From Rhododendron vialii (Eukaryota; Streptophyta; Magnoliopsida; Ericales; Ericaceae): a stretch of 64,000 bases of DNA. Both the position numbers and the translations under genes were made by a program. Below the pieces are notes generated by a model. It made no database searches. It was not told the DNA's origin and saw nothing but the letters and a program-made list of their open reading frames with translations. This document shows, in pieces, positions 688 to 29,797 of this stretch (positions within the stretch are counted from its first letter, which is position 1; the number at the start of each line of letters is the position of its first letter). The stretch is from assembly GCF_030253575.1 (NCBI RefSeq), contig NC_080558.1:40750611-40814610 (forward strand), in the 5' to 3' direction.

Positions 688-809
688 CAACCGCAAGACA
701 AATTATCACTTCTTTTTTTTTGGTCACACAGACTAGAGGTCCATGTAGTTAAATAACATAAAGATATGAAAGACCTCCCATGATCAATGTATAATCAACA
801 CCGAACAAA

Positions 810-3155
810 ATGGCGATCTTCCTGATCTTGCTCTTATTCTTCTTGTTGCCCGCAGGGATCGGAGCCGGAGCACGCGAACGAGATCGCGATCGCGACGATG
901 AGTGCATGCCGAAGAGGTGCGGAGTTGAGGGCCCGGAGATCCGGTTCCCGTTCTGGCTAAAGGATCATCAACCGGAACGTTGTGGCTACGGGCCTGGCTT
1001 TGCCCTAACCTGCTCTCACAATAAGAAAACAATGGTTGATGTCGCTTTTTCTGCCAGGGCAGTGGTCGAACTTATAGATTACTACCAGCAGTACATATCA
1101 TACGAGTTCTCCGGTTGTGTTCCGCCACATGAAAAAAACCAGAGCTCAATAACAAACACCTCTCCCTTTACCCAAACCAGCAGCGGGGATGGGTACCACG
1201 TATTCAGTTGTCCCAACCAACTAGCGGTACCAATTTCCTCCATCCTACTGGAGGATTATTATTATTATTATCAACAAAGCTATGTTCCACTCCCATGCGT
1301 TAGCCGTCCAGGTCACAATCTCTACTTGCTGTATTCGGATTTTAGGATCAGTCAAACACTGCTGAATTGCACAAAGATGTATGGCCTTCAATCAGATCCA
1401 ATGCCGTACAGGACATCCTGGTCCCAGCCACACTGTTGGATCTGTGAAGTAAGAGGCAAGTATTGCAGATTGATCAGTAGTAGCAATAACAGCAACAAGC
1501 ATGAAACTGAGTGCTTTGACATCCCGAAGCAGCCACCTAGAGGTACTTACTTCTCATCATCTCATCCTTGAGAAGAAAAGGAAGAATGTTTAGCTAGTTC
1601 ACTTTTGCTCTCTCGATCGCTTTCATTTTATTTGCCTGCTGGGTTTTAGATCGATGCTTGTTAAACGCTGCTAGTATATTATTTATTAATTCCTACAACG
1701 ACAAATTTAATTAACCACCTTCTTCAAGCGAAAAGAAGTGGGCTGTACGTATGTGAGTATCAGCCTCTATTGACCTGAGAGATCGAGCTTGGGTCTTGGC
1801 AACTTGCTGGAAAAATAATGAAGTTGTTTTGATTTTGTGTATTCCCATGTACGGTAAAATTGACTAGTGTTTTCTATATGATCTTTATATATACAGGTGA
1901 AGCACCAAAAAAAGAAACGAAAAACCCACTTGCTAAAGGTGAATTGTCTGAGATTGGATAAGTTATTCTCTTTCCCTATATTCCCTTTGTACTACGAGTA
2001 ATTTGGTTGTTTATACTTGCAGGTCTGATCCCACCTGGCCTTTTTCTTCTTGGTGTACTTGTCATAGCTACATACTTCATCCGCAGATCAAAAAATAGGA
2101 GTATCAAGAAAGAGGATCAAGTAAAGGTTGAAAGATTCTTAGAAAACTACAGGGTTCTCAAGCCTACAAGATACACATATGCTGAGATTAAGAAAATTAC
2201 TCGTAATTTCAAGGACAAATTAGGCCAAGGAGGTTATGGAACGGTTTACAAGGGGGAGTTTTCCGATGGTGTTCCCATTGCAGCCAAGATCCTCAACAAC
2301 TTCACAGGAAATGGCGACGACTTCATCAACGAAGTGGGAACGATCGGTACGATCCACCACATCAATGTGGTTCGATTGGTCGGATATTGTGCTGATGGGT
2401 ATGAAAAAGCTCTTGTTTACGAGTACTTGCCGAATGATTCTCTCGAGAAGTACATATCATCTCATCGTTACAGATGTTTACTTGGTTGGGAGAAGCTTCA
2501 AGATATTGCTATTGGAATAGCCAAAGGAATTGAATATCTTCACCAGGGGTGTGATCAAACAATCCTCCACTTTGATATTAAGCCTCATAACATCTTGTTG
2601 GACAAAAAATTAATTCCAAAAATCTCTGATTTTGGGCTAGCCAAGTTATGCTCAAAAGAACAAAGCTTTGTGTCCATGACAGCTACTAGGGGGACCGTGG
2701 GTTATATTGCTCCAGAAGTGTTCTCCAGGAATTTCGGCCGTGTGTCTCACAAATCAGATGTCTACAGCTTTGGAATGTTGTTGCTTGAAATAGTGGGAGG
2801 TAGGAACAAGAATGTCGATGATCATACAGAAGAAAATAGCGATGAAGCTTACTTTCCTGAATGGATTTACAAACGTTTAAATCACGAAGCAGCAAAGGAC
2901 AATGGAGTTGAGGTTGGAAGAGATGCCAAGATTATTAAGAAGCTGACAATTGTAGGACTTTGGTGCATTCAATGGTGCCCAGGGGGCAGGCCCTCAATGG
3001 AAGCTGTAGTTCAAATGCTTGAAGGTAATGGAAAGGCTTTGGCCATGCCCCCTAATCCCTTTTCCACCACCAATCCATCAGTTACAAGGGGGAGCGTCGA
3101 TGGAAGGCCTTTCAGTAGCGTGTTAGATATCATTTCTGAATCTGAATCCGATTGA
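810..3155 (+). CDS. LRK10-like (rust resistance kinase Lr10 type) receptor kinase, three exons
   Basis: Plasma-membrane receptor-like kinase of 635 residues, which phosphorylates Ser/Thr after sensing an extracellular, possibly wall-derived, signal; the ligand is unknown. Exons by splice signals and phase: 810-1542, a 42 bp mini-exon 1897-1938 (starts EAPKKETK after the split Gly codon) and 2023-3155; the reading frame stays open throughout. Residues 1-21 form a signal peptide. A cysteine-rich GUB_WAK_bind-type domain follows (CGVEGPEIRFPFW, CGYGPGFALTC), then a second Cys cluster (CWICEVRGKYC) like WAK_assoc. Exon 3 opens with a transmembrane helix (LIPPGLFLLGVLVIATYF) and a kinase domain: glycine loop GQGGYGTVYKG, Lys in IAAKIL, catalytic loop HFDIKPHNILLD, DFGLAK and GTVGYIAPEV. 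HFD in place of HRD makes it non-RD, as is usual in this family and in many immune receptors. ATG 810 is chosen because the signal peptide follows directly. The family is certain; the biological role is inferred. Confidence 0.93.
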
Positions 3156-3540: not shown

Positions 3541-3880
3541 TGGTTTTGTTTTTATTTAAATTTTTTTCGCGTTTATGAATTATGTGCTAAACTTTTGTGA
3601 CTTATTGATTCGTCTTAACCAGACGAATCGGAAAAGTAAATTTTTTTTTTTACTTTGACTCAAATATTTTAAAAAATAACCACTTTTAAGTAAAAAAAAA
3701 AGAGGTCAAAAAAGTTAAAATTCTTTTGCTAGAAAGTGGTTATTTTTCAAAATATTTGGCCAAAAGTATTTTTTTTAAAACTTTTCCGATTCGTTTTCTC
3801 AAGACGAGTTAATAAGTCACAAAAGTTTAGCGCAAAACTAACAAATGCGAAAAAAATTCAAATAAGGACAAAACCAAAAA
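3541..3880. repeat. Family A hairpin MITE
   Basis: Two long inverted arms. The left arm reads GTTTTTATTTAAATTTTTTTCGCG, TTTTGTGACTTATTGATTCGTC and GAATCGGAAAAGT; the right arm carries the complement (ACTTTTCCGATTCGTTTTCTC and AATAAGTCACAAAAGTTTAG, then AAATGCGAAAAAAATTCAAA). The centre is a second palindrome of AAATATTTTAAAAAATAACC type. It has no coding capacity, as expected of a non-autonomous DNA element. Stretch 3881-4143 between this copy and the next shows nothing else. Confidence 0.7.
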
Positions 3881-4143
3881 AAATGAAAAAAATTGTTGGA
3901 ATATATACTCGATTAGAATACACTTGTAAATTTAATTACCGAAAATTGAATGTACAAACGAAATCTAAAAAATGTACAGCTCAGTATTTTTTTTGATGAT
4001 AAGTAATGTACAGCTCAGTATATGCATTAGTAAAACAAACTTACACCTGAATGACATCCGGTTTGCATAAAATTATTGCAACCTAGCCGAAAAGATTTGG
4101 CCATGGCACAAACCTTCCTAGACAACTTCATAGCAACAATTTA

Positions 4144-4452
4144 GCTTTGTTTTGGATTAAAAAAAAAAGTCAACTTTTTTATTTGTCTTTATTCAAATTT
4201 TTTTCCGCATTTGCTAGTTTTGCGTCAAATTTTTGGGGCTTATCAAAAAAGTAAGAAAAATTTGAGCGAAACTCATAATTTTTTTATAAAGACAAAAATT
4301 TGATCAATTTTTATTTTATTTTTTCGATTCTTCTCGTCAAGACTAATCAATAAGTCACAAAAATTTTAATGCAAAACTAACAAATACAAAATTTTTTTGA
4401 TTAAAGACAATCAAAAAATCATTTTGACTTTTTTTTTTATCCAAAATAAGCC
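4144..4452. repeat. Family A hairpin MITE with TTA target duplication (Tourist-like)
   Basis: Starts GCTTTGTTTTGGATTAAAA and ends with the inverted TTTTATCCAAAATAAGCC. The arms carry the family marks (CTTTATTCAAATTTTTTTCC, GCATTTGCTAGTTTTGCG and their complements near 4345-4395). The trinucleotide TTA flanks both ends (4141-4143 and 4453-4455), the target-site length of PIF/Harbinger Tourist MITEs. This copy gives the best boundaries for family A. Confidence 0.7.
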
Positions 4453-4692
4453 TTAGCAAAGGCGGCGGGAGGGGGGCTTTCCTTTCTTCTCCTCTCCTCT
4501 TGGGCTTTCTCTCTATCGGATTGATTGGAGATCTATCTCCTCCTTTCATTGTCCTCCACCCTCGCCCTACCCTTAGGCCTCCGTCCGCCTAGACCCTCTC
4601 GTCTTCTCCACCGTCATCTCCATCACATAGTCGTCGGTGTTCGCCACTAAGGTGTGTCTCCGGTTCATGAATTAGCTTGCAGATGTGGTTGC
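4453..4692 (+). repeat. Left part of an older retroposon-like sequence split by the copia insertion
   Basis: GC-richer, C/T-rich sequence (TCTCCTCTTGGGC, CCTCCGTCCGCCTAGACC) unlike the surrounding AT-rich DNA. It runs into GTTGC at 4688-4692 and resumes after the copia element at 9975, where it ends in AATAAAATCTCC and an A-rich tail near 10335. The joined piece is about 600 bp without a long open frame, so it could be a LINE untranslated region, a SINE-like retroposon or a processed transcript copy. Confidence 0.35.
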
Positions 4693-4912
4693 TAAAGAAG
4701 TTCTGAAAACCCTAGTCAGATATCAAGAGAAGAGAGAGAGAGAAGAGAAATGTTATTTCTGAAATCTGTTTTTCTTCACTAATTACAACGCTGGTCCACG
4801 ACCACTTTTATATCAAGTCAATACATCACAAAGACAGCTCAGCATTTACTAAACAAAATGAATAACAAACTAACCACTTAACTAAACAGCCCACTAATGA
4901 CCTTTCTGTACA
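4693..4912 (-). repeat. 3' LTR of the copia element
   Basis: 220 bp. Read on the minus strand it opens TGTACAGAAAGG and closes AACTTCTTTA. The left border is fixed by the target duplication GTTGC just outside it, the inner border by the purine tract and by where identity with the other LTR ends. The last codons and stop of gag-pol (to 4878) lie inside this LTR. Confidence 0.93.
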
Positions 4913-7900
4913 GCCCCTGCAAACTCATGGGTGTGTCAACAACCATGAGTTTGTCTTTTAGAAAAAGAAAACGAGCTACAGACAAAGGTTTAGTAAAGAT
5001 GTCAGCAACTTGATCCATGGAACCAACATGATGAACCACAATCTGTTTGGACAAAACCTTCTCTCTGATAAAATGATAGTCAATCTCTACATGCTTTGTG
5101 CGGGCATGGAAAACAGGATTAGAAGCTAAAGCTATTGCGGAAAGATTGTCACACCAGATAGTGGAGGGCAAAGCAGAAGAAACAAAAAGTTCCAAAAGCA
5201 GCTGTTGAACCCAGGTTACATCTGCAGCTATTTGAGCTAAAGATCGATACTCAGCTTCTGTAGAGGATCTAGCCACGGTATGTTGCTTCTTGGCACACTA
5301 AGAGACCAAGTTGGAACCAAGAAACAAACAAAAACCAGATGTTGATCTTCTTTCTAGAGAATTCCCTGCCCAATCAGCATCTGAGTATGCAGTTAATTGC
5401 AATGAACTGGGGGTGAAAATCAGACCTTGATGTAGAGTACCACGTATGTACCTGAGGATACGTTTAACAGCCACAAAATGGCTATGTTTTGGATTATGCA
5501 TATGCTGACAAGCAAGGTTTACGGCAAAAGCAATTTCTGGTTTGGTAAGAGTGAGATATTGAAGTGAACCCACCACTGTTCTGAACCAATGTGGATCAGA
5601 AAATTCAGGATCAGGATCAAAAAGGGCAAGCTTAGAAGAGATAGGAGATGGACTGGGTTTGCACTCAAGCATCCCTGCTTTTATTAGAAGATCATGGGCA
5701 TACTTGGTTTATGAAAGAATAATGGAGGATCCATGGTATAAGACTTCAATCCCAAGAAAGTAACTTAGACAACCAAGGTCTTTCATCACAAATTTTGAAC
5801 TCAGCACAGAAATTAACTCAGAAATATAGGCAGTATTTCCCCCAATAATCAAAATATCGTCCACATACACTAATACCAAAGTAATGTCAGAATCTGATTT
5901 CTTAAGAAACAGAGAAGAATCAGCTTTGCTTTGCATGAAACCTTGTTGGAGAAGAAAGCCAGAGAAAACTGCAAACCAAGCCCTAGGAGCTTATTTTAAT
6001 CCATAAAGAGCCTTGGTTAATTTGCATACAAAGTTGGGATGAGCAGGATCCTTATAACCAATAGGTTATTTCATGAAAACTTCTTCATCAATAACACCAT
6101 GCAGAAAAGCATTGGACACATCCAATTGCTTAATTGGCCATGCATTATGAACAGCAAGACTCAGCACTACCCTTACAGTGGGTTGTTTGATCATAGGACT
6201 AAATGTCTCAGCAAAATCAAGACCTTCAGTTTGTTGATTACCATTAGCAACCAAACGAGCCTTGTATCTTGCCACACTACCATCAGAATGACGTTTGATT
6301 TTGTATATCCATTGGCAACCTATTATGTTGGCCCCTAAAGGAGGAGGGACTAAAGTCTAGGTACCTTGTTTGACCAAAGCTTGATATTCCTCATGCATGG
6401 CTTGTTGCCAAACAGGATGTTTAACTGCCTCAGAAAAATGAGTAGGTTCTTTTGTTAGCAAAGGAAGATCAGTTCCAATAGTATTCAGATTAAAGGAAAT
6501 TTTAGGTTTAACAATACCATGTTTAGACCTTGTAGTCATGGGATGAAGATTAGTACTTGTAGGGACTAACTGAATAGAATTGTCTGAAGCAGAAGGAACA
6601 GGAGAGGAAGGAACAAAAAGTACATGTGAAAAGGACTCATTGGGTAGATGAGGAGAACTAGAAGAAGAAGGTGGCACAGAAGAATTTGAAAAAGATGGAG
6701 ACTGATTAGGAGTACATAAAGGATTTAACCTAGACAAAAAAGAGGAAGAAGTAAAAGGAGCAGAAGTTAGAGTAGTATTATCTGAAACAGAAGAAGTAGG
6801 ACATGGAACTTGAATAAGAATGTCCTCAAATGTGGTCAAAGGAACATTAAAAGAGACAGGTGAGGTAGAAGAAGAATTAACATCAATGTGAACAAGTTCA
6901 GGATAAGGAAATTATGTTTCTACAAATTTAACATGTCTAGAAACATAGACCTTATTTGCCTTTGGGTCATAACACTTGTAACCCTTAGTATGAGGGCAAT
7001 AACCTAGAAAAATACGAGTAGAGTTAGGAGAAAGTTTATTGGAAACATAAGGTTTTAACCATGGAAAGCAACAACATCCAAAAGGTTTGAGAAACATATA
7101 ATCTGGAGGATTATGAAACAATATGGTATATGGAACTTGAAACTGAAGACTACTATGAGGCATCCTATTAACAAGATACATTGCTGTAGTTAGAGCCTCA
7201 CGCCAAAAGGAAGTAGGTAAATGGGACTACAAAATAAGAGTTATTGTGGTCTCTATTAGGTGTCTATGCTTTCTTTCAGCAAGACCATTCTGTTATGGAG
7301 TATGAGGATAGGAAGTCTGATGAATTATGCCACTAGAGAGAAAAAGATGTAAAAGAAAGTGATTTATGAACTCACCTCCATTATCACTCCTAAAAGTTTG
7401 AACAGTTGTATGAAATTGAGTTGAAACATAAGCTTGAAATTGAGCAATGACTTGTTTAACCTCAGATTTATAGTGAAGAGGAAATAACCAAGTAAATCTA
7501 GTGAAATCATCAACAAGTAACAAATAAAATCTGAAACCCTTATGAGAAGGAATGGGAGATGGTCCCCATACATCCATATGAATCAATTGAAAAGGTGAGC
7601 TAGTAGTAGAAATAGAAACAGGAAATTGAAGTTTATGACTTTTAGCCATATTACAACATCTGCAGTTTACCAAATGAGGTTTAGAAATAGGTAAACTATG
7701 TTGCTTTGTTATGGCTTGAAACATAGAAAGACTACGGTGACCAAGCTTCTGGTGCCAAAGCATAGCAGAAGGAGAAGGGGTGCTTACAAAAGCTGTTGAA
7801 GAGGGACAAGAAGAATGCTCAGAGAAGGTCAGAAGAGGATATAGACCCTTGTGACAGGGTCCCTTGTACAGAGTTTGGTGAGAAATCTTGTCCTGAATTT

Positions 7901-9647
7901 CAAGACCAGAAGAATCAAAGATTAGTGAGCAATGATTATCCCTAGCAAATTGATAGACAGAAATTAAGTTGTGAGTAATATGAAGAGAATGAAGCACATG
8001 AGACAAATGAAGAGGACCTGAAGGTGTTGGAAGCAGTCCTTTGCCAGTGTGTAAAACTTGAAGCTGTGAGCCATTACCCACCATAATGCCTTCCTGAGGA
8101 TTGGCAGGTTGAGGAAGAGTCAAGTTCTGAAGGTTGTTAGTAATGTGATTGGTAGCTCCACTGTCAAAGTACCAGGGGTTACCACCAGAAGTAGAGGAAC
8201 CAGCAACTGAAGCATGAGATAAAGGAGAAGCAGCAGCAAAAAACTGATTTCCATTAAAATGTTGGCCTGTGTGGTATCTAGAAAAAGGAGGCAAACTGGA
8301 AACAGAACATGTCTCAGTAAATCCAGCAAATGATTGTGATGGGGCAACAGATGGAGAAGAAGATGTAGCATGATGTCCATGTTGCTGTTGGATTTGCATA
8401 GGAGGAGGTTGAAACATAGGAATTCCATTGGGATAATTGGTCATCCATGGTGCAGAGTTATACATCCAGGAAGTTGGTGACATCCAGGAAGTTATACATC
8501 CAGGTGATCTCCACTTATAAGAAGGAGGAAAAGAAGGATACTAAGATCGGTAGTGGCAGTAATTGGTAGAATGATTGGTACGGCCACAAATCTCACAAGG
8601 CATTCGTGGACCTCTTCCTCTATAAAATCCTCTCAACTGATTTGGAAAAACTTGAAAAGGCTGCTGTGACACAGTCTGTACTGGCAGAAAAGAAGTAGTA
8701 GGTGGACTAAATTGTGGAGAAGGTCCATATGAAGAAGAGCCTACATTGGATTGACCATGTCCAGTGACAGAACCACTATGTTGAAGACCATACTATAAAG
8801 GAGGGACAAACTGTGAAGTAAAACCAAGCTGTCCACCAAGTGAATTCAAACTAGATGAAGTCATAGAGGAACCAGGAACAGATGTGGCCTCAACAGGCAA
8901 CTTTCCATGTCCTGATTGATGAGTATGAGTAGCAACAAGAACAGAACTAGTGTCTACTCTTGTATGAGAATCCTGAAGAAGTTGAATATCTTCTCCTTTG
9001 AGCATATTGACCACGTCATTAAACGTAATATTCTATCCACTGGTTTGTAAAGCTTGTACAGTAGTCTTCAGTCCATTGAAAACACCAGGTAAACCTCTAA
9101 GAGTATGGAAGATAAGGTCATCATCATCAACACAACTGCCTGCCGCAACAAGTTTTTGGGCATACTCTTTGATGGTATCAACATAACACTCAATAGTAGA
9201 GGTCTTGGTGAGATTGTACAACTTATTCTTGAGATCTTGTACATTACTTTTAGACAGCGAATTGTATCTACTGGACAGAGAGTCCCATACTTCATGTGTA
9301 TGATGTAACCCTAGAATATAGGGTAAAGTCGTAGGAGAAAGAGAAGTAGTTAAATAGGAAAATAACTGAGTATCTATGAGTGTCCATAGAGCATACGCAG
9401 AATTAGGAACCATATTTCCCTCATCATTGCGAGTTTGAGAAGCCGGACACACAGCCGATCCATCAAGATACGCATAGAATCCATTAGCACGCACAATATT
9501 CTCAACTTGAATACGCCACAACAAGTAATTTGTACTGTCGAGTTTAATTGTGACGAAATTATGAAAATTTGTCATGAGAAACATGAGTGCAGGAGGAATT
9601 GTTACCATCTCTGTCGATGCCATTACGAGCAATTGAAAGAACACCAA
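4878..9647 (-). pseudogene. Copia gag-pol polyprotein, one frame with 11 premature stops
   Basis: One frame of 1590 codons. The start is ATG 9647 or, more likely, the MASTEM start at 9623. Domains in order: gag with the copia N-terminal fold (NFVTIKLDSTNYLLWR) and a CCHC knuckle CEICGRTNHSTNYC near 8600; protease WYFDSGATNHIT; GAG-pre-integrase (LWHQKLGHRSL, CRCCNMAKSHK); integrase (HMDVWGPSP, RSDNGGEF); reverse transcriptase (DVSNAFLHG, YVDDILI); RNase H (SDADWAG, SSTEAEYRSL, IWCDNLSAI). Stops lie at 9033, 8793, 8541, 7293, 7227, 6912, 6357, 6066, 5991, 5709 and 5298 (lowest base of each codon). Every one is TAA or TAG where the copia context suggests Gln (CAA/CAG) or Trp (TGG). No frameshift was found over 4.77 kb. 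Confidence 0.92.
4913..4920 (-). other. Candidate polypurine tract
   Basis: Minus strand GCAGGGGC directly precedes the 3' LTR start TGTACAG. It is short for a polypurine tract, and it is inside the coding frame. Confidence 0.5.
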
Positions 9648-9734
9648 GATCTTGAAGACGACAGTTTGAATTTGACAAAGGAAATCACTGGAATCACCAG
9701 AATCTCAGGATCGAAGATCGACTTCCGTCAAAAA

Positions 9735-9747
9735 GGCTCTGATACCA
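9735..9747 (-). other. Primer-binding site (initiator Met tRNA)
   Basis: Minus strand TGGTATCAGAGCC abuts the 5' LTR with no spacer. This is the usual copia and gypsy primer site in plants. Confidence 0.9.
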
Positions 9748-9969
9748 TAAAGAAGTTCTGAAAACCCTAGTCAGATATCAAAAGAAGAGAGAGAGAGAGA
9801 AGAGAAATGTTATTTCTGAAATCTGTTTTTCTTCACTAATTACAACGCTGGTCCACGACCACTTTTATATCAAGTCAATACATCACAAAGACAGCTCCGC
9901 ATTTACTAAACAAAATGAATAACAAACTAACCACTTAACTAAACAACCCACGAATGACCTTTTTGTACA
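9748..9969 (-). repeat. 5' LTR of the copia element
   Basis: 222 bp partner of the LTR at 4693-4912. Differences: one base near the GA run, one extra GA unit, A/C in the GCTCAGC/GCTCCGC stretch, and three substitutions near the outer end. It should carry the promoter; minus-strand transcription would start here. Confidence 0.93.
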
Positions 9970-9974
9970 GTTGC

Positions 9975-10345
9975 CAGAGTCCATTCTTGTGCGCGCTTGG
10001 TTTGCCGGAGTAGGAGTGCCTGATTGGTTGGGTGTTGTTTGTGAGGTTTTATTTCTTTTACTTTTCGATTTGTTTTTGTGTTTTTTTCTACGGTTTCTTG
10101 CTGTGAGTCTTTCTCCCAGTTCGGTGTTTTGTTGGGGTTTTATTCGTTGGCTTTGGGATCCGGTTGTCAGAAGCTAGCTGATGATCAAGGGATCGTCATG
10201 TTGGTTTGTGAGGTTCTGGAGTTATAAGCTTGCGCATCTAGGCCTCTTTGTTATTATCTTTGTTTGGGATAGTTAACGTCCTTTGATTGTATATTTATCT
10301 CGTATCAATAAAATCTCCTCCCATTTTAGAAAAAAGAAAAAATAG
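9975..10345 (+). repeat. Right part of the retroposon-like sequence, with A-rich tail
   Basis: Continuation of 4453-4692 beyond the copia insertion. T/G-rich sequence ends GTATCAATAAAATCTCC, then ATTTTAGAAAAAAGAAAAAAT, which looks like a poly(A) signal and decayed tail. A short open frame (9971-10177, rich in Leu and Phe) has no recognisable domain and is probably chance. Confidence 0.35.
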
Positions 10346-10765: not shown

Positions 10766-11543
10766 TACGTCGGCGGTGGACATTAATTTCTTGATAGGAC
10801 CGGGGGTGCTGTAGTGCCGAGATGAACGGTTAGATTGGCCACACTACAGCCCCTTCCATTCCTTCTTGATAAATGCGGTGGACATTTCGATCATGTTCAT
10901 TTTGAAATTTGAATTTGGGATTCTCTTTTCGCACATAGTCTTCAATAAATTTTTTTCTAATTATTATTCTCATTTCTCTATCTGTCCCTATTTATTCATT
11001 ACCCAAAATCTCAAATCGAACATTGTTTTCAAGCCTGCAGTCGTTTAAGATAGGGAATTTTGTGTGCTGTTTCCAACCAATATACAGGTTGGCTTCAATT
11101 AAAAAAGCCACATCCTCTCTCCCCTTTTCTTTTGAATGTTTATTAGGTTTGTATTTAATTTTATAAACTAAATTTATAAACAAAAATTGATAATAAAAAA
11201 GGGCAAAAAAGTCATAGCCGTACTGTAGCAAAGTAGCAAGCCAGTCTTATCCATTTTGATAACTATCAGTAGTGTAGATTGTTTACCACCAAGTCATCTA
11301 AAAAATTTGAGCTGTTAGAAAAATGAGTAATTTTTTATTATTTATGTTCTCAACAGCTATCCTCGAGAAGAGAGTTAAATACGTGTAAATTTCAATAATT
11401 AGGTACGCAATAATGTTCAAACACATGATCTATTGCCTAAGTTAACACCGTATTAGATTGATTGTTTATCATCTAAAAACTTAAGCGGTTTGAAAGAAGG
11501 ATAATTTTACTAATGCAAACCATAAATTGAATTCATTATAGTA

Positions 11544-11779
11544 CTCCGTCTGTCCCAATTTGCTTGTCCCACTTTTATTCTAATTGGATAAAAAAACTAG
11601 TTATATCTTTAAATTGGTAATAAATTTTATATTCAATATGGATCTTGTTTGATAGATCTCGATTTGTTCTATAATACAATGTTTTCAAAATCACCTAAAA
11701 CATTATAAATTACAAGATATAATCATTTGAAAAGTGACACAAACTCCCAAAAGTGACAAGTAAATTGAGACGGAGGTAG
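11544..11779. repeat. Stowaway-type MITE with an empty site in the sister copy
   Basis: Left end CTCCGTCTGTCCCAATTTGC and right end AAATTGAGACGGAGGTAG are the CTCCCTCCGTCCC-type ends of Stowaway. TA flanks both sides. The duplicated block at 14650-15680 reads CATTATAGTATGATTT at the matching place, the uninterrupted target. Confidence 0.85.
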
Positions 11780-11814
11780 TATGATTTATTTATATTCTCA
11801 CCAATAACAGTCTA

Positions 11815-12062
11815 TAAAAAAATTAGGTCATGTCCATGATATGATCTACTCATATGTCCGTGTTCGTTCAGGTAGACTTGTAACGTGGGGGCCTTGACTT
11901 CTATGGAAAAATCAGGTCATGCCCTTGATATGATCTACTCATATGTTTGTGTCCGTTCCGATAGACTTGTAATGTCGGGGCCTTGCTTCTATAGAAAAAT
12001 CAGGTCATGTTCATGATCTACTCATATGTCCGTGTCGGTAGACTTGTATTGTGGGGGTCTTG
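11815..12062 (+). repeat. Tandem array, unit about 89 bp, array 1
   Basis: About 2.7 units, each carrying ATCAGGTCATG, GATCTACTCATATGTCCGTG, GGTAGACTTGTAA and GGGGGCCTTGACTTCTATGG. The third unit has lost about 20 bp. Function unknown. Confidence 0.85.
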
Positions 12063-14649: not shown

Positions 14650-15680
14650 TCCCCAACTACAGTCCCTTCCATTCCTTCTTGATAAATGCGGTGGACATTT
14701 CGATCATGTTCATTCTGAAATTTGGATTTGGGATTCTTTTTTCGCACATAGTCTTCAATAATTTTTTTTAATTATTATTCTCATTTCTCTATCTCTATAT
14801 ATTCACACATTATCCAAAATCTCAAATTGAACATTGTTTTCAAGCCTGCTGTCGTTTATGATAGGAAATTTTGTGTGCTGTTTCCAACCAATATACTGGT
14901 TGGCTTCAATTAAAAAAGCCACATCCTCTCTCCCCTTTTTCTTTTGAATTTTTATTAGGTTTGTATTTAAATTTATAAACAAAATTTGATAATAAAAAAG
15001 GGCTAAAAAAGTCATAGCTGTACTGTAGCAAAGTAGCGCGCCAGTTTATCCATTTTGATAACTATCAGTAGTAGATTGTTTACCTCCAAGTCATTTAAAA
15101 AATAAAATTTGAGCTATTAGAAAAATAAGCAACTTTATTATTTATGTTGTCAACATCTATCCTCGAGAAGAGAGTTAAATACGTGTAAATTTCAATAATT
15201 AGATAGGCGGTGATGTTCAAACACATGATCTATTGCATAAGCTAATACCGTATTAGATTGATTGTTTATCATCTAAAAACTTAAGCGATTTGAAAAAGGG
15301 ATAACTTTACTAATGCAAACCATAAATTGAATTCATTATAGTATGATTTATTCATATTCACCAATAACAGTCTTTAAAAAAATCAGGTCATGTCTATGAT
15401 ATGATCTATTTATATGTCCGTGTCCGTTCCGGTAGACTTGTAATGTGGGGGCCTTGACTTCTATAGAAAAATCAGGTCATGTTCATGATATGATCTACTC
15501 ATATGTCCGTGTCCGTTTCGGTAGACTTGTAATGTGAATGCCTTGACTTCTATGGAAAAATCAGGTCATGTCCATAATATGATCTACTCATATGTCCGTG
15601 TCCGTTCCGGTAGACTTGTAACGTGGGGGCCTTGACTTCTATGGAAAAATCAGGTCATGCTCTTATTGTTAGTCCATAAA
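14650..15680 (+). repeat. Block 2 of the diverged 1 kb duplication
   Basis: Sister of 10845-12062, with many substitutions and small indels, lacking the Stowaway element and carrying an expanded tandem array from 15370 to 15665. Confidence 0.8.
15370..15665 (+). repeat. Tandem array, unit about 89-90 bp, array 2
   Basis: Three complete units and part of a fourth of the same repeat as at 11815. Units share GGTCATG, GATCTACTCATATGTCCGTG and CCGGTAGACTTGTAA, so copy number differs between the two loci. Confidence 0.85.
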
Positions 15681-15808
15681 GCAACAAAAACTTGTGGAAG
15701 AAGACTCTTTCCTCGTCTTCCCGTCTCCGGTCTTTCTGCATAACTATGTGGGCCAGACTTGATCCTTCAAAAAAACTCTTGCCGGCCATGTTTCTAGGAT
15801 GAGCCTTG

Positions 15809-28560: not shown

Positions 28561-28800
28561 GGAGAAGGAAGAAAATCCAACTAGAGAGTTTAACTCTTTT
28601 AAAAGTCATGAGGAGGTATTTGAAAGTATGTTTGTCAAATCTACTCCTAAACACAGCTGCCAATGACTGAAAGTATAATTTGATTTCATTGAAATGGTGT
28701 AAAAGAATACAGGGTTGAGTTATTATGGCCTGTCACATCTATGACTGAATCAAACTATCATCTAACTAGTCTACGAACATTTGAACACCATTAGAAAATA

Positions 28801-29797
28801 GAATTCATGAATTTGAAACAATTCATCTGTATGAGGATCTAGCAACACAAAGCCTCTTTTGCTGGGAGAGAATTCTTGCCAACCTATACTGAGATTACGA
28901 AAACATGGATTAGAATATGCTTATTGATTAAGATGCGATCTTAAACTCGACTAGACTAAATTTCACAAGAATAGTTAGCTGTATACAGGACCGATTCTGA
29001 GTTTTTGGAGGCGATAATAAAGATGATGCCTTTTACAAATTTCAAGACAAGCATAAATAAATAAATCACTTTTTCCAAAACAAAAGAGCACTGATCAATA
29101 AAAAAAAAATCTCAACTGCAAATGGAACAAGTGATCTATCACTTGGTGTATTGGCACCATTCATACACAGATTTTTAATGGCTTTCAAGTTCAAAACTCT
29201 AGTGCTACGAAAATGAAAAATTAGATTTCTTATGTTAAGCACTCCTACTACACGTTTGCACCTAAAAAAGTAAGAGAATTAGATTCCAATGAAGCGAGAA
29301 TTCATGAATTTGAAACAATTCGTCTGTATGAGGATCTAGCAACACGAAGCCTCTTTTGCTGGGAGAGAATTCTTGCCAACCTATACTGAGATTACGAAAA
29401 CATAGATTAGAATATGCTTATTGATTAAGATGCAATCTTAAAACTCGACTAGACTAAATTTCACAAGAATAGTTAGCTGTATACAGGACCGACTCCGAGT
29501 TTTTTAAGGCGATAATAAAGATGATGCCTTTTACAAATTTCACGACAAGCATAAATAAATAAATAACTTTTTCCAAAGCAAAAGAGCACTGATCAGTAAG
29601 AAAAAAATCTCAACTGCAAATGGAACAAGTGATCTATCATTTGGTGTATTGGCACCATTCATACACAGATTTTTAATGGCTTTCAAGTTCAAAACTCTAG
29701 TGCTACGAAAATGAAAAATTAGATTTCTTATGTTAAGCACTCCTACTACACGTTTGCACCTAAAAAAGGAAGAGAATTAGATTCCAATGAAGCGAGA
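28801..29797. repeat. Tandem duplication, unit 497 bp
   Basis: GAATTCATGAATTTGAAACA starts at 28801 and again at 29298; both copies end AGATTCCAATGAAGCGAGA. The unit holds the last patatin exon of copy B and the left end of the hAT-like element, so both are present twice. The copies differ by only a few bases, hence a recent event. Confidence 0.92.

Follow-up and report, generated by a model that had tools for sequence, protein, structure and literature searches.

The stretch analysed here (the window) comprises 64,000 nucleotides of Rhododendron vialii DNA, located at C2:40750611-40814610 in an assembly of 532.6 Mb and 13 contigs. Its minus strand carries, at 4693-9969, a full-length, decayed Copia long terminal repeat (LTR) retrotransposon, the coding part of which forms a single frame from gag through the presumed RNase H region, broken by 11 internal stop codons. 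All of these are TAA or TAG (5 and 6, respectively, with no TGA), as a sequence-only reading of this DNA had noted. Comparison with a sister insertion and more distant copies reveals an excess of C>T changes that is centred on CHG sites (H being A, C or T) and balanced between the strands, which is the pattern that would be expected of CHG methylation followed by deamination.

The domain order, read from the pieces between the stops, is gag, Pol_BBD, gag_pre-integrs, integrase core, SH3-like and RVT_2 (Table 1); ten such pieces were submitted to Pfam and five had a match. The piece 9036-9704 matched copia-type gag (PF14223, E 2.8e-12), and the gag ATG, counted from the translation, lies at 9621-9623. 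Solved structures matching the integrase piece were integrases of Ty and retrovirus type, and no match was found between this piece and viral contigs. In the sense of the minus strand, integrase (rve, 7296-8540) precedes reverse transcriptase (RVT_2, 6356-5712). The C-terminal part has no Pfam match at 0.001, yet shares ~40% identity with the corresponding region of eight other Copia loci. Gag, the integrase ahead of reverse transcriptase, the C-terminal region and the single frame are as in plant Ty1/copia elements (RVT_2, rve, Retrotran_gag_2), and so are the LTRs, the 5-bp target-site duplication (TSD) and the primer-binding site, which we take to be tRNA-iMet-like. The differences are the 11 internal stops and LTRs that end TG...TA rather than TG...CA. 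Nothing tested about the element falls outside known Copia biology, and it is a normal decayed Copia copy.

The two LTRs are identical at 216 of 221 aligned bases (97.7%, the likeness previously given), one of which belongs to the TSD; they differ by three transitions, two transversions and one 2-bp indel in a GA repeat. Both carry the TA end (4693-4696 and 9748-9751), in contrast to TG...CA in the related copies L043 and L045 described below, and since it is present in both, this end probably came with the template. TGTA is included in the motif list of LTR_retriever (PMC8220671), so a TG...CA end is not required for Copia membership. The TA ends did not prevent integration of the copy, and its 5-bp TSD is perfect.

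Table 1. Features of the decayed Copia element (window coordinates)
Feature	Position	Strand	Basis
Whole decayed Copia element	4693..9969	-	LTR pair, TSD, primer-binding site, domain order
5' LTR, 222 bp, sense-strand termini TG...TA	9748..9969	-	local alignment of LTR pair
3' LTR, 220 bp, sense-strand termini TG...TA	4693..4912	-	local alignment of LTR pair
TSD GTTGC, left copy	4688..4692	.	flank sequence
TSD GTTGC, right copy	9970..9974	.	flank sequence
Primer-binding site (presumably tRNA-iMet-like), directly adjoining 5' LTR	9735..9747	-	sequence reading
gag (Retrotran_gag_2), ATG to first stop	9036..9623	-	Pfam PF14223
Stop 1, TAG, gag	9033..9035	-	
Stop 2, TAG, gag linker	8793..8795	-	
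Stop 3, TAG, after a presumed zinc-knuckle-like motif	8541..8543	-	
Pol_BBD, gag_pre-integrs and integrase core (rve), with a presumed protease-side motif	7296..8540	-	Pfam
Stop 4, TAA, integrase	7293..7295	-	
Stop 5, TAG, integrase	7227..7229	-	
Integrase SH3-like domain	6915..7226	-	PF25597, E 2.9e-23
Stop 6, TAA, after SH3-like domain	6912..6914	-	
Stop 7, TAG, start of reverse transcriptase	6357..6359	-	
Reverse transcriptase, part 1 (RVT_2 6-99)	6069..6356	-	PF07727, E 3.9e-26
Stop 8, TAA, reverse transcriptase	6066..6068	-	
Stop 9, TAA, reverse transcriptase	5991..5993	-	
Reverse transcriptase, part 2 (RVT_2 126-215)	5712..5990	-	PF07727, E 2.7e-18
Stop 10, TAA, end of reverse transcriptase; a stop in L045 too	5709..5711	-	
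C-terminal part, two pieces either side of the stop at 5298; presumably the RNase H region	4881..5708	-	position; identity to Copia loci
Stop 11, TAG, C-terminal part	5298..5300	-	
Terminal stop of the polyprotein, TAA	4878..4880	-	

Sister insertions and ancestral codons

When the host genome was searched with the DNA of 6066-7226, 40 of 179 candidates were scored and yielded 64 matches; counts of copies are therefore lower bounds. Among the matches listed there is one close copy (L043, on C4, 97%), and all others are at 83% or less. Nine regions were fetched (L043-L051), eight of which were aligned to the element; L050, at 70% identity where aligned and covering part of the element only, was used solely in the protein-anchored stop check described below. 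Identity to the window over the aligned part is 0.968 for L043, 0.860 for L045 and 0.805-0.822 for the other six, two of which (L047 and L049) align over part of the element only. Eight distant Copia loci of the same genome (L001-L008) served for additional comparison, and four more (L009-L012), likewise distant, were dropped. GGATC, the TSD seen in the flanks of L043, differs from that of the window copy, and these flanks show no similarity to those of the window copy; L043 is therefore a separate insertion. Its LTRs diverge by a Kimura two-parameter distance (K2P) of 0.0217, and within its integrase region (L043 ~3800-4030) 117 bp matching window 7444-7561 are tandemly duplicated in frame. 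The corresponding values for L045 are TSD TTGCC and K2P 0.039. Copies with longer open frames are present in this Copia group.

The claim of one frame was confirmed, and no frameshift was found in the window copy. Its length differences to L043 within coding sequence are all divisible by three (at one compound site the net difference is 9), apart from a single base near 4918, where ~13 codons of the frame are left; L045 agrees with the window copy there, and the alignments of the six remaining relatives are ambiguous. The 11 stops leave 12 open segments rather than the nine previously counted; two of these are short (21 and 24 aa), and the other ten each span 79 aa or more. The span proposed for the polyprotein, 4878-9647, begins correctly with the terminal TAA, and its other end overshoots the gag ATG by ~8 codons. 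One indel is private to the window, an in-frame 3-bp deletion near 7016, where eight of eight relatives have three extra bases. The gag linker has further in-frame length differences for which the direction of change is not resolvable, and linker gaps in the pairwise alignments to the 80-82% copies were treated as alignment noise and excluded from the indel count.

At all 11 stop sites, L043 has a sense codon. In relatives aligned in clean register the sites hold Gln (seven sites, at one of which L043 itself has Lys), Trp (two) and Glu (two). Single C>T or G>A changes from Gln or Trp thus account for nine of the stops, as had been proposed for every one of them; the two Glu sites have a different origin, G>T. 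The distant loci L001-L008, which could be reached at 8 of the 11 sites, have Gln or Trp at six (at one of these in five of six loci) and other residues at two. At one site they have Gln where the nearer copies have Glu, and at another they have Ser or Asp against Gln in the nearer copies; given these disagreements, the nearer copies were preferred for the ancestral codons.

When flanking protein pieces were used as anchors, five to nine of nine relatives were reached per site, and a stop was found in the relatives at one site only, 5709, in L045. Because the sister L043 is without that stop, it is most simply read as a parallel change. Alignments in gapped register show stop letters at 8793 (L044 and L046), 8541 (L044, L046 and L048) and 5298 (L051); the anchored check found no stop at these sites in the relatives reached, with flanks giving conflicting register at 8541 (L044 and L046), 7293 (L047) and 5991 (L049). 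Elsewhere, in-register stops are shared by L044 and L046 (9645 and 8394) and by L048 and L051 (6717). Of these positions, 9645 lies ahead of the gag ATG, and 8394 and 6717 fall in poorly aligned linkers; none was used as evidence of inherited stops.

Spectrum and sequence context of the changes

The window copy and L043 differ by 166 substitutions, of which 60 could be polarised to the window and 52 to L043; the remaining 54 could not be assigned and were excluded from the context counts. Changed polarisable sites amount to 60/4006 (1.5%) in the window and 52/3998 (1.3%) in L043, which roughly matches the LTR divergence. The window lineage has 31 GC>AT changes, 12 AT>GC changes and 17 transversions, compared with 20, 17 and 15 in L043, and its rates per site are 31/1549 for GC>AT and 12/2457 for AT>GC. 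Within the coding part, 15 changes are synonymous, 33 are nonsynonymous and 8 create stops, against a neutral expectation of 13.9, 39.0 and 3.2, and selection on the protein is not evident.

Counted on either strand, C>T changes in the window affect 15/261 CHG, 14/1232 CHH and 2/56 CG sites, with an odds ratio of 5.3 for CHG versus CHH (p = 2.2e-5). The sister lineage has 12/246, 7/1242 and 1/51 (odds ratio 9.0, p = 5.5e-6), and the two pooled give an odds ratio of 6.6 (p = 5.8e-10). The excess in the window persists when the stop codons are removed (CHG 12/252, CHH 11/1227, p = 1e-4), and the strands are balanced, with 18 C>T and 13 G>A (p = 0.47). CAG (9/132) and CTG (5/117) behave alike, CAA changed at 6/203, and CAC and CAT together at 1/268. 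Among the stop-creating transitions that can be compared with the sister, five are at CHG and three at CHH. The main context test covered seven lineages, including L044 and L048, which lack a significant excess. CHG is raised over CHH in L045 (28/213 versus 62/1113) and L046 (9/256 versus 13/1121) and mildly raised in L051 (26/254 versus 67/1104). In counts only, the partly aligned L047 (8/138 versus 6/686) and L049 (9/142 versus 14/700) are raised as well. The CAA rate in the window exceeds that of other CHH sites (8/1029); it is not raised in L043 (1/205). For CAA and CTA combined against other CHH sites, p is 0.06 in the window and 1.0 in L043, neither significant, and 0.016 in L045, which is only a hint of a contribution by chromomethylase 2 (CMT2).

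The number of stops was compared with simulations drawing on the mutation spectrum of the window copy itself. The 60 polarised changes would give 3.0 stops where 8 are seen (p = 0.008), an estimated 89 changes would give 4.6 where 11 are seen (p = 0.004), and 8.5 would be expected if all 166 differences to L043 were charged to the window (p = 0.23). These p-values overstate the surprise because the element was picked for its stops. L043 has 3 stops where 2.5 are expected, and L045 has 15 in register at 1.7 times the LTR divergence of the window, a rough count since 3 of the 15 differ from the codon of every relative at more than one base. The window copy is thus no outlier among the three full-length copies.

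The types of stop mislead when taken by themselves. The coding region has 3 CGA, no CGG, 55 CAA, 24 CAG and 21 TGG codons, and its CpG observed/expected ratio is 0.19 (4878-9704) versus 0.68 for the whole window. The absence of TGA stops is explained in part by this CpG-poor composition with only three CGA codons; 24 of 124 GC>AT transition routes to a stop yield TGA, so that none in 11 has a chance of ~9%. Because the Gln or Trp origin and the missing TGA follow largely from codon make-up, stop types alone are weak evidence for deamination, and the context counts support it better.

Age and explanation of the decay

At an LTR K2P of 0.023, the substitution rates in common use (1.3e-8 and 7e-9 per site and year) place the insertion about 0.9-1.6 million years ago. 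We consider it likely that the element represents the ordinary decay of a silenced Copia copy in which C>T changes at methylated CHG sites are prominent. The element would have been inserted and then silenced, and would have decayed under the ordinary germ-line mutation of the host, with C>T at CHG cytosines (CAG and CTG) standing out. The methylation would be of the chromomethylase 3 (CMT3) kind, and the 5-methylcytosines would then have been deaminated spontaneously. Such sites would be offered by Gln codons (CAG and CAA) and some Trp codons, which may be why most stops are found at Gln or Trp. A minority of the stops and more than a quarter of the polarised changes are transversions. The stops would have arisen after, and not just before, insertion. 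The sequence-only reading had likewise invoked deamination of methylated cytosines in a silenced young element. This mechanism is probably correct, on stronger grounds than the stop types provide: the strand-balanced excess in CHG context, in this copy and in its sister, argues for it, and the argument from stop types as originally put does not stand.

In Arabidopsis mutation-accumulation lines, mutated CHG bases are strongly enriched for methylation (PMC8145854). The same study reports 8 indels to 31 single-nucleotide variants, and 10 to 60 in controls, with indels confined almost entirely to repeats and their vicinity, so that the scarcity of coding frameshifts is less surprising. Methylation of CAG and CTG is CMT3-dependent, with less methylation at CCG, and deamination at mCAG and mCTG is mentioned in this connection (PMC5221884). 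In Welwitschia, the low GC of elements has been ascribed to long-term deamination (PMC8275611). A literature search of limited depth found no study of exactly the present design. Older work is said to have described a transition-rich decay of maize LTR elements. The element shares with the methylation-linked decay of silenced plant transposons the CHG-centred, strand-balanced C>T excess, and differs in that the case consists of two sister copies of one small group, known from sequence only and with 56 CG sites.

Several observations weigh against this explanation. Two of the 11 stops are G>T transversions, and transversions make up 17/60 of the window changes and are not rare; together with the private deletion this departs from the earlier description of a decay free of transversions and indels. 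The check proposed along with it, counting changes by context against relatives, thus came out in favour as to the CHG excess in the window and L043 and against as to transversions, and Glu at two sites, where Gln or Trp had been predicted, counts against the original argument by the refuting condition named with it. The GC>AT share in the window (31/60) is not far above that of the sister (20/52). CG sites, which should be methylated too, changed at only 2/56, although they are few. Transversions are themselves somewhat raised at CHG (5/507 versus 8/2474, p = 0.055). Of the other lineages, L048 has no CHG excess (14/260 versus CHH 60/1116) and in L044 it is not significant (2/248 versus 6/1109). 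Finally, the 11 stops exceed the 4.6 expected from the context model.

Some of these observations are what would be expected of neutral decay without regard to context or methylation, in a copy that caught the eye of a reader for being rich in stops. Transversions and AT>GC changes are numerous, the excess of stops is modest, the sister has close to the expected number, and two lineages lack a significant CHG excess. We nevertheless regard this as improbable, given that in two independent lineages the rate of change at CHG sites is ~5-9 times that at CHH sites and that CHG is raised in the further pair L047 and L049. The surplus of stops could also mean that some or all were already in the template and that the copy was mobilised in trans by proteins of other elements. 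Eleven is more than the LTR age predicts (~3, given 56 coding changes), the template had probably diverged from that of the sister beforehand, as the window LTRs end in TA and those of L043 and L045 in CA, and with L043 as the only close copy among the matches listed, the stops could fall between its split and the insertion. This too is unlikely: the fetched relatives share at most one stop (L043 0/11; L045 1/11, probably in parallel), and the 1.5% change in the body is close to half of the LTR K2P, so that an extra phase before insertion is not required.

Processes that would act on C by enzyme or on the stops by decoding fare worse. Both repeat-induced point mutation (RIP) of fungi and APOBEC editing of animals have a C>T excess in common with the window copy and differ from it in strand balance and in the CHG, rather than CpA, context. 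Hypermutation of single-stranded cDNA by an APOBEC-like enzyme at insertion would be expected to leave a bias to one strand, in contrast to the balance observed, and the window copy is changed at 1.5% of sites only, near the 1.3% of its sister; no APOBEC is known from plants, and this explanation is very improbable. RIP-like mutation at CpA would account for the changes at CAG and CAA, both of which are CpA. The preference breaks down at CAC and CAT, which are nearly untouched, and at CTG, which is changed; RIP is a fungal process, the 532-Mb genome with its plant-type genes is not fungal, and there is next to no chance that it operated here. Equally hard to credit is a polyprotein still being made by decoding TAA and TAG as an amino acid or by reading through them, for which one could cite the continuous frame, the lack of TGA and the Gln or Trp at nine sites in near relatives. 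The stops replace three kinds of residue (Gln, Trp and Glu), they are absent from the sister, the eight distant Copia loci have sense codons at the eight reachable sites, the polyprotein itself terminates at TAA, and the counts of synonymous and nonsynonymous changes lie close to the neutral expectation.

Ordinary decay of a silenced copy is thus the explanation that we retain, and it raises one further, doubtful possibility, namely that in silenced elements non-CG methylation converts Gln codons to stops at a higher rate than decay averaged over contexts predicts. CAG as a CMT3 target and CAA as a CMT2 target would be preferred non-CG targets. If true, silencing itself would speed the death of the element as a protein-coding unit, and the excess of 11 over 4.6 stops would be its trace. 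In any case, the element offers a small and clean example of how DNA alone, by means of sister insertions and outgroups, can indicate in which contexts a plant transposon was probably methylated.

Surroundings of the element

The Copia element is inserted in a unit of ~600 bp (4440-4692 and 9975-10345) with a GC-rich start and an AATAAA and A-rich end, looking like a long interspersed nuclear element or a retro-copy. Upstream in the window, at 795-3155, two open frames read like the cysteine-rich ectodomain and the receptor-like kinase domain of what we take to be a plant kinase gene. Beyond the element, the blocks 10843-11985 and 14656-15723 contain several direct repeats, with four families 89-96% alike between the blocks at a spacing of ~3.6-3.8 kb, and both have 89-bp tandem arrays, as if they were two LTRs or a duplicated unit. 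Further on, a 498-bp unit is present in two head-to-tail copies that match at 96% (28800-29797).

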